A stretch of 64,000 bases of DNA from Clostridiales bacterium (GTDB lineage Bacteria; Bacillota; Clostridia; Oscillospirales; Acutalibacteraceae). Of the stretch, positions 31,766-35,421 are shown in pieces. The notes below the pieces were generated by a model that saw nothing but the letters and a program-made list of their open reading frames with translations, searched no databases and was not told the origin of the DNA. Location of the stretch: NCBI GenBank assembly GCA_012840445.1, contig DULI01000011.1, positions 1 to 64,000 of the forward strand, given 5' to 3'. Both the position numbers and the translations under genes were made by a program. Each line of letters begins with the position of its first letter. Positions within the stretch are counted from its first letter, which is position 1.

Positions 31766-34645
31766 CTACAATGCCCTTAAAGATATAAGGGATGTTATTA
31801 CTGTAAAGAATAGCTGGTATATGATAATCCAAAGCGCTGTAATAAATGTAAAATGGCTTGTTAACACAAAATAGGCGGCAAGCGCAATGCCTAGAATTAC
31901 TCCGAGTATATGTACAACCGTGTTGGCGGCAATTGTGCTTTTTAGCTTTATGCATGCGGTGAGTGCCGCTGCAAACCCGCAAACCGTATCAGTGTATAAG
32001 GCTAAAGCGTTTGTGTTCTCTTGGTAGTTTGCCTCCTGTTTGTATAACTGTACAGCTACGGGGTCCATTATTTTAATTGAATCGACATATAGGCCGAAAT
32101 AATCACTTAGCATTTGCTCAGTAATGTTGGGGTCGTTTGAGTTGATAAGAAGCGTCATTCCGGTATTGCAAAGGCGCCGGAGCTCCAGGGTGATTTCCTC
32201 GTTTGCCTCATATCCTACAACAAACAATAAACAGGGTGCGCCGCCGCTTGATATATAAACCGGGAAAAAGCCGTTTCGGAGTATTTTGCGGTCCACCTCG
32301 ATAGGAGGAACAGTAACGCCGTGGGCTTCCATTAGGGTCCGGTTGCCCACAAGTATTCGCTTGTCTCCAATCCAGCCTGACAGGCCCATTTTATCTTCAT
32401 AGGTAATTGAATCAACTACCGGCAGCTTTGACCTGTCGTATTCCAAAATCCTGTCAAAAATATCCGTAAGCGTGCTTTTAGCGCCAATTGCCAGAGCGGA
32501 GGCCTCGATTATGGTCTGGTCAACTGGATTGTTGTTTAAAAGATGCATGTTGTATAATTTTACAGTCCCCGCCGGGAACAGGTCTAAAGCGTCGAATACA
32601 ACAGCATTGGATTCGCTGAGGGTTTCCACCGCGTCATATCCGGTTATTGCTGCCTTGTAGTCCCCGAGCCGAACGGATGCAAACCTTAAAGGCAGATTGC
32701 TTAATAGCAACGATGTGGGGGGGCAGGCAAGGCAGAAAACTGTAGTGGCAAGCGTTATTGCTGGAATAATACAGCCTGACATAAAGAAGGCAAGAAGTCC
32801 GAAACCGGCAGAGGCAGCGGTGGCAATAGCCAGGAGTTTCGGGATTAACCGTTCAAAGGGGTCTACACAATAGGAATTTCTAAGGTAATGGGTGATATTG
32901 GTTGTCCGCCGGCCTATGCCGATTAGCGCGTCCCCATAGACAGCCCCTCTTGCCATGCTGGCCGCTGCCATTTCGTTTTCAACAAGCTGGATTCCGTATT
33001 TGGGATCGGGCGTTGCCACAAATTTAAACCCTTTGCGTATTCTTGACACAATGGCAAGTTTGCCAAAGGCATTAAACAGCAGTGCGACCGATGCAACGGA
33101 CGATAGCTGGGGGATTGAATCGCCCGCATTCAGGGCAAAACCCAATACGCTGTGAATTAATACTGCAAATACCGCAAGGGCCGCGGGGGTGTCCATATCA
33201 GGCTTCAGGGTGAAAATCCCTGCAAGTCCTTTCATGGTATTTATGTTTATTAGTGAGCAAAGTGACAGCAGAAGTATGTTAGCCAGCAAATACATATTGT
33301 AATTGGCCGCCTTGATAAATTCTGCAAAGGGTGTGGCTAAAAAGACAAGTAAGGCGACGATAATAAAGGTGGGGATAATCCTAAATATCAGCCTGCGCCT
33401 GTTGGAGTTCAGCTCAGCCCATACCGAATTTGCGTCGTCGTAGCAGTTGTAGTCATCAATTTCAAGGTCCTCTTCCTGCTCGACTGCCAGGCGCACCTCG
33501 TCAGGGAAGTTGTCTTCTTCCTCGTCGCCAAATAGAGAGAACTTTTTGGCGGTGGAACGTCTGCGTTTTTCAAGCTCTATTTCCCAATCTGATTTTTCGT
33601 TTTGGTCAAATATTTCATCCAATTCCTTAAAATTAAAGGCCGTTGTATGTGCGGTGGAACTGGAAGTATCAATGGGGCTTTTTTCAGTGATTGGGATATG
33701 CAGTTCTTTGGTTTTTTCATTAGAATTGCTGTAATCGGATATTTTTATGTTTTCATCGGCATAGCTGAATTGAAAGTTTTTAGCCTTTATGGCGGCGTTA
33801 TTGCTGGGGTTCTCAAACTGTTTATTTGTTGCTAGTGTGTCGGTTTTCTGATTTGGGTCAACAAACGCGATTTTAACCGGCACCTCTTTGGCCTCTCTTG
33901 AAACAGCTGGGCTGCTACCCGGTGTGTTTTTTGTGAACCTGCGTGGAGTAACCTTTTTTATCTGTACTTTATTATGCTGTTCGGCAGGTTTTTCTTCGTC
34001 TGTTTTACCCTTCATATTTTCGCAGGATGGCGCCTCAATCTCTCCCTTAATTGGAGGCTGGGAAATGCCGGGCTTGCGATTGGACAACGGGTCAATGAAC
34101 TCCAGTTTTAAGTTGCTTATACCGTCTTCTTGGGTGCCGTAGATTTTTGCAATCCGCTCTTGTGCTTTCTTTTCGGCAGAGCGTATTATTTCTTCCACAC
34201 TCTCCAGCTGGTATTTCGGCTTGCGAAAATATGAATCGGGGTCCCCGCTGTCGGCTATAAAATCCCTCATTTTATAAAGCAACGATGTGGTAGGCTGTTC
34301 AGGTGGTCTATATGTAGCCTGGGTGCTAGTCCCGGTCTTGGTTTGGTTTATATTCCCAATTTTTTCAGATAGCTGTTTTTTAGCTTCAAGCAGTTTATAA
34401 TACAGGGTTTGGGAATCTTCCTGCCGTGTGGAGGCCTGAGGTTCATGTTTTTCCATTATAATATTTTCCACACTATGTTCGGGGGTATTACGGTTAGAAT
34501 GCATAAGCTCATCCGGGGTAAGCGCGTATGGTGCGATTACCCTTTTTTGGGTAGAAATATTATTATTTTGGTTTAACATAGGGATGTTTTCAATATCATA
34601 TGGCAGAATGCTATCACTAGGTCTTTTTTTACGAAACCAGCCCAT
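31766..34645 (-). CDS. Degenerate P-type ATPase-like membrane protein
   Basis: A 959-residue protein with an unusual build. Residues 1 to about 410 are hydrophilic, rich in Lys, Glu, Pro, Ser and Asn, and probably disordered. From about 420 it follows the P-type ATPase plan: helices, an actuator-like loop, a helix with CPP (641-643) where heavy-metal pumps have CPC, then VVFDALDLF at about 682-690 where DKTGTL should stand, a nucleotide-domain-like GWIGDKRILVGN, and NSND in place of TGDN. The TGE loop and GDGxNDxPAL are absent. It ends with about three helices. It therefore cannot form the usual phospho-intermediate cycle. ATG 34645 follows GGGGGATT. It lies 26 bases downstream of rlmB and is likely in its operon. 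Function unknown. Confidence 0.72.
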   Translation of the reverse strand: MGWFRKKRPSDSILPYDIENIPMLNQNNNISTQKRVIAPYALTPDELMHSNRNTPEHSVENIIMEKHEPQASTRQEDSQTLYYKLLEAKKQLSEKIGNINQTKTGTSTQATYRPPEQPTTSLLYKMRDFIADSGDPDSYFRKPKYQLESVEEIIRSAEKKAQERIAKIYGTQEDGISNLKLEFIDPLSNRKPGISQPPIKGEIEAPSCENMKGKTDEEKPAEQHNKVQIKKVTPRRFTKNTPGSSPAVSREAKEVPVKIAFVDPNQKTDTLATNKQFENPSNNAAIKAKNFQFSYADENIKISDYSNSNEKTKELHIPITEKSPIDTSSSTAHTTAFNFKELDEIFDQNEKSDWEIELEKRRRSTAKKFSLFGDEEEDNFPDEVRLAVEQEEDLEIDDYNCYDDANSVWAELNSNRRRLIFRIIPTFIIVALLVFLATPFAEFIKAANYNMYLLANILLLSLCSLININTMKGLAGIFTLKPDMDTPAALAVFAVLIHSVLGFALNAGDSIPQLSSVASVALLFNAFGKLAIVSRIRKGFKFVATPDPKYGIQLVENEMAAASMARGAVYGDALIGIGRRTTNITHYLRNSYCVDPFERLIPKLLAIATAASAGFGLLAFFMSGCIIPAITLATTVFCLACPPTSLLLSNLPLRFASVRLGDYKAAITGYDAVETLSESNAVVFDALDLFPAGTVKLYNMHLLNNNPVDQTIIEASALAIGAKSTLTDIFDRILEYDRSKLPVVDSITYEDKMGLSGWIGDKRILVGNRTLMEAHGVTVPPIEVDRKILRNGFFPVYISSGGAPCLLFVVGYEANEEITLELRRLCNTGMTLLINSNDPNITEQMLSDYFGLYVDSIKIMDPVAVQLYKQEANYQENTNALALYTDTVCGFAAALTACIKLKSTIAANTVVHILGVILGIALAAYFVLTSHFTFITALWIIIYQLFFTVITSLISLRAL

Positions 34646-34671: not shown

Positions 34672-35421
34672 TTATGCGTTCACACTTCTTTGGCGGGCGA
34701 CCTCATACATTAAAATACCCGCAGCAACAGATGCGTTAAGCGAATTTATTTTGCCGAACATGGGTATAGATATTATATAATCGCAGTTGCGTTTAACAAG
34801 CTGACTTAATCCCTTTCCCTCGGAACCTACCACGATGGCACAAGGGCCGGTGTAGTCTTTACCGGTCCAGGGCTCTCCGCCCATGTCAGCGCCGTATATC
34901 CACAATCCCTTATCCTTCAGCTCGTTTATAGTAGATACAAGATTAGTAACCCTTGCAACCTTCATATATTCAAGCGCGCCGCTTGCCACCTTTGAAACGG
35001 TAGCTGTAAGTGACGCCGAGCGCCTTTTGGGGATGATTATCCCGTGGACGCTGCTCGCTTCGGCGGTGCGGATTATTGCGCCAAGGTTGTGGGGATCTTC
35101 AATGCCATCGCATATAACAATAAAAGGAGGTTCTTTTTTTGATTCAGCTAAAGTTAGAATATCCGAAACCTCGCAGTATGAATGAGAAGCAATGATTGCG
35201 GCAATACCCTGGTGCTTGGTGGTGCCGCAAATATTATCAAGCTTTGCTGAGGCAACCTCTTTGACGGGTATTCCTTTTTCTTTGCATTTTGCGATGGCTG
35301 CCGTATGTGCACCGGAGGCTGTGCTGACAACCAGGATGTAGTCGATTTCCCTACCCGAGCGGAGGGCTTCCAATACCGCATTCCTGCCTATTATCAGGTT
35401 TTGGTTTGGGTCCTGTGGCAT
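34672..35421 (-). CDS. rlmB: RlmB/TrmH-family 23S rRNA 2'-O-methyltransferase
   Basis: A 249-residue SPOUT methyltransferase. The N-terminal substrate domain starts LIIGRNAVLEALRSG; catalytic motifs are DPHNLGAIIRTAEAS (motif 1), IVVGSEGKGLSQL (motif 2) and SLNASVAAGILMYE (motif 3), which form the trefoil-knot AdoMet site. RlmB methylates G2251 of 23S rRNA; the family also contains tRNA enzymes, so the exact target is an inference. ATG 35421 follows GGAGG. Confidence 0.92.
   Translation of the reverse strand: MPQDPNQNLIIGRNAVLEALRSGREIDYILVVSTASGAHTAAIAKCKEKGIPVKEVASAKLDNICGTTKHQGIAAIIASHSYCEVSDILTLAESKKEPPFIVICDGIEDPHNLGAIIRTAEASSVHGIIIPKRRSASLTATVSKVASGALEYMKVARVTNLVSTINELKDKGLWIYGADMGGEPWTGKDYTGPCAIVVGSEGKGLSQLVKRNCDYIISIPMFGKINSLNASVAAGILMYEVARQRSVNA

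Follow-up and report, generated by a model that had tools for sequence, protein, structure and literature searches.

A predicted P1B-ATPase pseudoenzyme family encoded beside rlmB across a bacterial order

The window (the whole stretch of DNA analysed, 64,000 nt) carries on its minus strand a long gene 26 bp downstream of rlmB. The gene product consists of a tail of nearly 400 residues followed by a core that resembles a P1B-type ATPase. The features of the locus are as follows.

34672..35421, minus strand: rlmB, a 23S rRNA methyltransferase of the TrmH/SpoU type and the conserved upstream neighbour (neighbourhood comparison)
31766..34645, minus strand: pseudo-P1B-ATPase gene, an intact open reading frame with an ATG start, 959 aa
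33467..34645, minus strand: N-terminal cytoplasmic tail, residues 1–393, mostly disordered and variable in length and sequence (predicted model and alignment occupancy)
34499..34525, minus strand: ALTPDELMH, residues 41–49, common to the closest orthologues (L031, L037, L038, L040)
34178..34204, minus strand: ESVEEIIRS, residues 148–156, an acidic motif of the family type in a short predicted helix (150–169)
31769..33466, minus strand: P1B-ATPase-like core, residues 394–959, eight transmembrane helices and the P/N head (AlphaFold, Foldseek)
32846..33016, minus strand: remnant of the actuator (A) domain, residues 544–600, without TGE (alignment with the genome's own CopA)
32717..32725, minus strand: CPP, residues 641–643, in M4 at the expected position of CPC (alignment)
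32579..32593, minus strand: DALDL, residues 685–689, replacing DKTGT (family consensus [D/x]-x-x-[DE]-[LI]-[FY]-P)
32372..32401, minus strand: N-domain loop YEDKMGLSGW, residues 749–758, holding Gly754 (alignment)
32210..32224, minus strand: FVVGY, residues 808–812, holding Tyr812, aligned to the Asp of the stretch VADTIK in the genome's own CopA
32120..32146, minus strand: INSNDPNIT, residues 834–842, at the TGD position (family [TS]-x-D-P-N-I-T)

The original prediction, made from the letters of the DNA, was that the second half of the protein has the helix and domain order of a heavy-metal P-type ATPase. Profile matches, a structure model and a structure search all uphold it. On its own, the window protein matched the NCBIfam CopA model PRK10671 with E = 1.4e-15 (56 bits, cut-off 1316) and TIGR01525 with E = 2.1e-5 (24 bits, cut-off 346). 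As both scores lie far below the cut-offs, these models would not name the protein, and a Pfam search with it gave no significant match. Homology of the family as a whole is detected with the same two models, as PRK10671 was matched by 49 of 57 members and TIGR01525 by 44 of 57. A family profile of 57 orthologues matched Legionella CopA (PDB 3rfu) with E = 1.2e-41. The AlphaFold model of the core (pLDDT 93.5, pTM 0.89) shows the complete set of eight P1B helices, and the PDB entries that Foldseek ranked highest for it were P1B copper ATPases (4bbj, E = 1.1e-18). The rmsd across the whole Foldseek alignment was large, 10–13 Å, which is expected since the domains sit differently. The homology spans the M, P and N domains, and by descent and fold the protein is a member of the P-type ATPase superfamily; a lack of structural similarity to these pumps is contradicted by the strong P1B match. 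The predicted domain order is kept with one refinement, namely that the actuator domain in the M2–M3 loop is cut to ∼60 residues; the genome's own CopA has roughly 120 there.

The catalytic motifs were compared column by column in an alignment of 56 family members and 10 real P1B pumps from the same searches. All ten pumps retain every motif, which serves as an internal control. For the window protein, the alignment confirms each substitution that had been read from its sequence: CPP for CPC, DALDL for DKTGT and NSND for TGDN (SND, residues 836–838, stands where CopA has TGD), with TGE and GDGxND gone. At the columns of DKTGT, the phosphorylation motif, the Asp is found in 26 of the 56 members and the Lys in none, and the Gly column holds D or E in 50. 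The column of the Glu of TGE, the dephosphorylation loop, is a gap in 55 members and aligned in one, and the Mg-binding GDGxND segment is deleted in all 56. An SEHP-type motif is present in 0 of 61 members; at the column of the ATP-contacting His in the HP motif of the N domain no His occurs among the listed residues, and the Pro of that motif is present in 40 of 56. The CPP triplet of the window protein is real but not a family feature, as only the middle Pro of the M4 metal site is conserved (50/56). The first Cys is found in 6 of 56, and at the third position Cys is not among the eight most frequent residues.

The string DKTG is absent from the core of all 61 members. It does occur in two orthologues (L093 and L094), where it sits in the disordered tail and was rejected as an intact motif, as were TGD or TGE strings in a few members, given the gap in the TGE Glu column. 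No orthologue with an intact DKTGT or GDGxND was found among the 61 members searched by string or the 56 in the column table, and motif loss is common to the rlmB-linked orthologues. Thus, a finding that would have spoken against the original prediction, orthologues with intact motifs, did not appear. Judged from these alignments, the evidence shows that the family has no known way of going through the P-type cycle, and that the catalytic parts are lost throughout the family, not only in the window copy. Compared with P1B-1 CopA (LpCopA, PDB 3rfu and 4bbj; AfCopA), the family shares the fold, the eight-helix topology including MA and MB, the P and N domains and the helix-breaking Pro in M4, but it lacks DKTGT, TGE, GDGxND, SEHP and CPC, has a reduced actuator domain and carries a long disordered N-terminal tail instead of the metal-binding domains.

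Other positions are conserved instead. The residues specific to the family are Gly754 (invariant in one family alignment, A2, and 56/57 in another), Gly767, Tyr812 (56/57) and Asp838 (54–55 of 56–57), and the conserved segments are DLFP, TxDPNIT and YEDxxGxSGW. In an alignment with the genome's own CopA and LpCopA, the two glycines map to the nucleotide loop of the N domain; Tyr812 is matched with the Asp of VADTIK, and Asp838 occupies the TGD position. The conserved head residues would thus be placed around the old nucleotide cleft and the N/P hinge. The two glycines may owe their conservation to structure alone. The strongly conserved polar residues of the head, that is Asp838, the D/E of DLFP and Tyr812, could suggest that the re-modelled head has acquired another enzyme activity, as a HAD-like phosphatase or a new nucleotide hydrolase, and 4 of 57 members gave weak Pfam Hydrolase matches (best E = 1.6e-4). 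We regard this as improbable, as only 26 of the 56 members keep the nucleophilic Asp of HAD enzymes, and none has the Lys or the GDGxND segment.

The membrane part permits a different reading, in which the protein is a passive channel, facilitator or scramblase whose membrane path now conducts a substrate down its gradient, gated by the head. All eight P1B helices are retained, and the family alignment shows conservation of Pro642 (M4) and of Gln944 and Trp947 (M6). However, CPC is gone, the metal-site residues of CopA M5 and M6 are not kept, and conservation is lower in the membrane segments than in the head, which makes passive transport an unlikely function.

Searching with the window protein alone gave matches in 56 of 60 relatives, and the profile search gave full-length matches at E ≤ 1e-45 in 241 of 248 genomes of the order, which is probably Oscillospirales. 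Three of the other seven genomes carry divergent copies (G581, G596, G630), and the remaining four (G343, G457, G474, G560) are without both the gene and rlmB, as is G032 from the first set of 60; these five have reported completeness of 94–100%. Three further apparent absences were rejected, one due to a divergent copy (G041) and two because rlmB at a contig end leaves no room for the gene (G005, G040). Every genome shown to be without the pseudo-ATPase gene is also without rlmB. Either the two genes were lost together or both fell into an assembly gap, and the co-absence is suggestive only, since the genes are adjacent and one gap could remove both.

Among 300 genomes of the phylum, matches at E ≤ 1e-45 were found only in five of the same order. 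In the class sample, none of the matches listed from outside the order was full-length; these reached at most 145 bits and spanned only profile positions of about 212–502, and the nine that were examined are real pumps with intact motifs. By comparison, the window protein scores 644 bits against profile A1, of which it is itself one row. In the tree, the family and the real pumps are divided by a single branch with a support of 100/100. The window protein bears the marks of this rlmB-linked pseudo-P1B family, i.e., a full-length profile match, motif loss and rlmB immediately upstream. The gene is near-universal in the order and apparently restricted to it.

Selection on the reading frame was estimated as dN/dS by the Nei-Gojobori method, using within-genus pairs from genera other than that of the window genome. 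For the core, dN/dS was 0.027–0.124 in eight pairs with at least 65% identity. Two further pairs at 39% identity gave about 0.2, with dS near saturation. The tail gave 0.08–0.15 where dS was usable and therefore appears to be constrained too, though less than the core. A decaying pseudogene or an assembly artefact could in principle account for a pump without motifs, and one orthologue (L049:4164-6560, genome G058) does contain an isolated in-frame TGA at a normally conserved Gly, which is either a recent nonsense mutation or a sequencing error. In-frame TGA codons in two other genomes (G478, G489) proved to be the terminal stops only. Set against this single case are intact frames in nearly all genomes, strong purifying selection on the core and retention across the order, and decay, to which we give next to no credence, is refuted for both the family and the window copy. 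The original view that the gene is retained rather than decaying is established by the dN/dS values together with its presence in nearly every genome of the order.

The surroundings of the gene are conserved on one side. Among the 58 loci with enough flanking sequence to show it, 57 have rlmB upstream in the same orientation, and in 54 the two genes are no more than about 220 bp apart. A larger distance in L049 is an artefact, as the in-frame TGA splits the open reading frame. At one locus (L088, genome G037) the gene instead follows obgE in the cluster dnaX-ybaB-recR-rplU-rpmA-obg, where the neighbours are still ribosome-related genes. The genes downstream differ between loci. In nine of them we read a neighbouring product as a putative EF-G-like GTPase, mostly encoded directly 3′ of the pseudo-ATPase; it follows directly or almost directly in L049, L059, L061, L072, L074, L084, L087 and L091. 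The linkage to rlmB may be a mere frozen operon. It also bears on the idea that the protein regulates a real P-type ATPase, e.g., the cell's own CopA, as one of its subunits, acting by hetero-oligomerisation. Real P1B ATPases are indeed encoded in most genomes searched, but the gene partners rlmB rather than a pump in all but one of these loci, and real pumps are found throughout the class without the pseudo-ATPase. A role as pump subunit is therefore very improbable.

The N-terminal region is of a different character. A disordered stretch of about 400 residues had been predicted to precede the pump-like part, and this holds: the full-length model puts 328 residues at pLDDT <50, and almost all of these belong to residues 1–393. 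Short helices are predicted at 78–97, 150–169 and 350–366, and the block of helix 150–169 has a pLDDT of 77–78. The mean alignment occupancy is 0.50 in the tail compared to 0.98 in the core, and the tail ranges from ∼100 to ∼1000 residues across the orthologues; two seemingly cut-short tails (G461, G488) were rejected, as they lie at contig ends. The tail is poorly conserved. Many members carry a short motif near the N-terminus, S-h-[DE]-[DE]-I-[LI]-x, which reads ESVEEIIRS in the window protein. As a shared recruitment signal this motif was rejected, as a pattern search of 60 genomes gave eight matches, four in the pseudo-ATPase gene and four in unrelated contexts, and found no other carrier. 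Among ∼560 neighbouring proteins, the sole carrier of a stricter version was a fragment of a split copy of the pseudo-ATPase gene.

No Pfam domain was found fused in the long tails. The tail of one orthologue (L049) is an (AKAAAE)n helical repeat, which fits a spacer. At two loci (L071:2850-7013 in G035 and L072:9554-13500 in G011), two long low-complexity open reading frames lie between rlmB and the pseudo-ATPase. Their products of about 600 and 750 aa are weakly similar between the two genomes, and the pseudo-ATPase's own tail is short in both. This arrangement suggests that the tail has split off into genes of its own, as if its function could be supplied in trans.

Taken together, we conclude on comparative grounds that the window gene belongs to an ancient, order-wide and unannotated family of predicted P-type ATPase pseudoenzymes. 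As a stripped pump that is kept nearly throughout the order, almost always next to rlmB, the protein has probably been re-used for a new and important job. The reading we favour, and consider rather likely, is that a CopA-like P1B ATPase has lost its catalytic cycle and now works in the membrane without pumping, as a scaffold, sensor or regulator whose tail acts as a recruiting arm; such a role would be compatible with all the evidence. The cycle would have been lost, most simply once, in the ancestor of the order. The transmembrane bundle would then act as a membrane anchor, the non-cycling P/N head as a fixed module binding a ligand or a protein, and the disordered tail with its short conserved helix would recruit a cytosolic partner. 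The role may be a housekeeping one, and because of the pairing with rlmB it is perhaps tied to ribosome or translation functions. More speculatively, the protein could be an order-defining core membrane hub in which the head senses a cytosolic ligand or holds a partner and the arm recruits a factor related to the ribosome or translation, so that the rlmB operon would couple a membrane signal to rRNA modification or translation, a scenario that we put forward only tentatively.

The closest precedent that we found is the P4-ATPase-like domain of the Plasmodium guanylate cyclase PfGC-beta, one of the alveolate guanylate cyclases, which has been described as degenerated (PMC6592433). That domain is eukaryotic, of the P4 type and fused to guanylate cyclase domains, whereas the pseudo-ATPase is an independent, order-wide bacterial family. 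A 2023 review expects more prokaryotic P-type ATPase families, and the parts of it consulted mention no catalytically dead one (PMC10654040). We found no description of the family in Pfam, NCBIfam or the open-access literature searched, and as far as these sources show, bacterial P-type ATPase pseudoenzymes are undescribed.

The family is near-universal in a large order, probably the Oscillospirales, which include many gut bacteria, yet it is without annotation. It is open to direct tests that start from its pairing with rlmB, the conserved residues of its head or the motif in its tail. That it has been retained almost everywhere in the order, at very low dN/dS, points to an important function that current annotation has missed.
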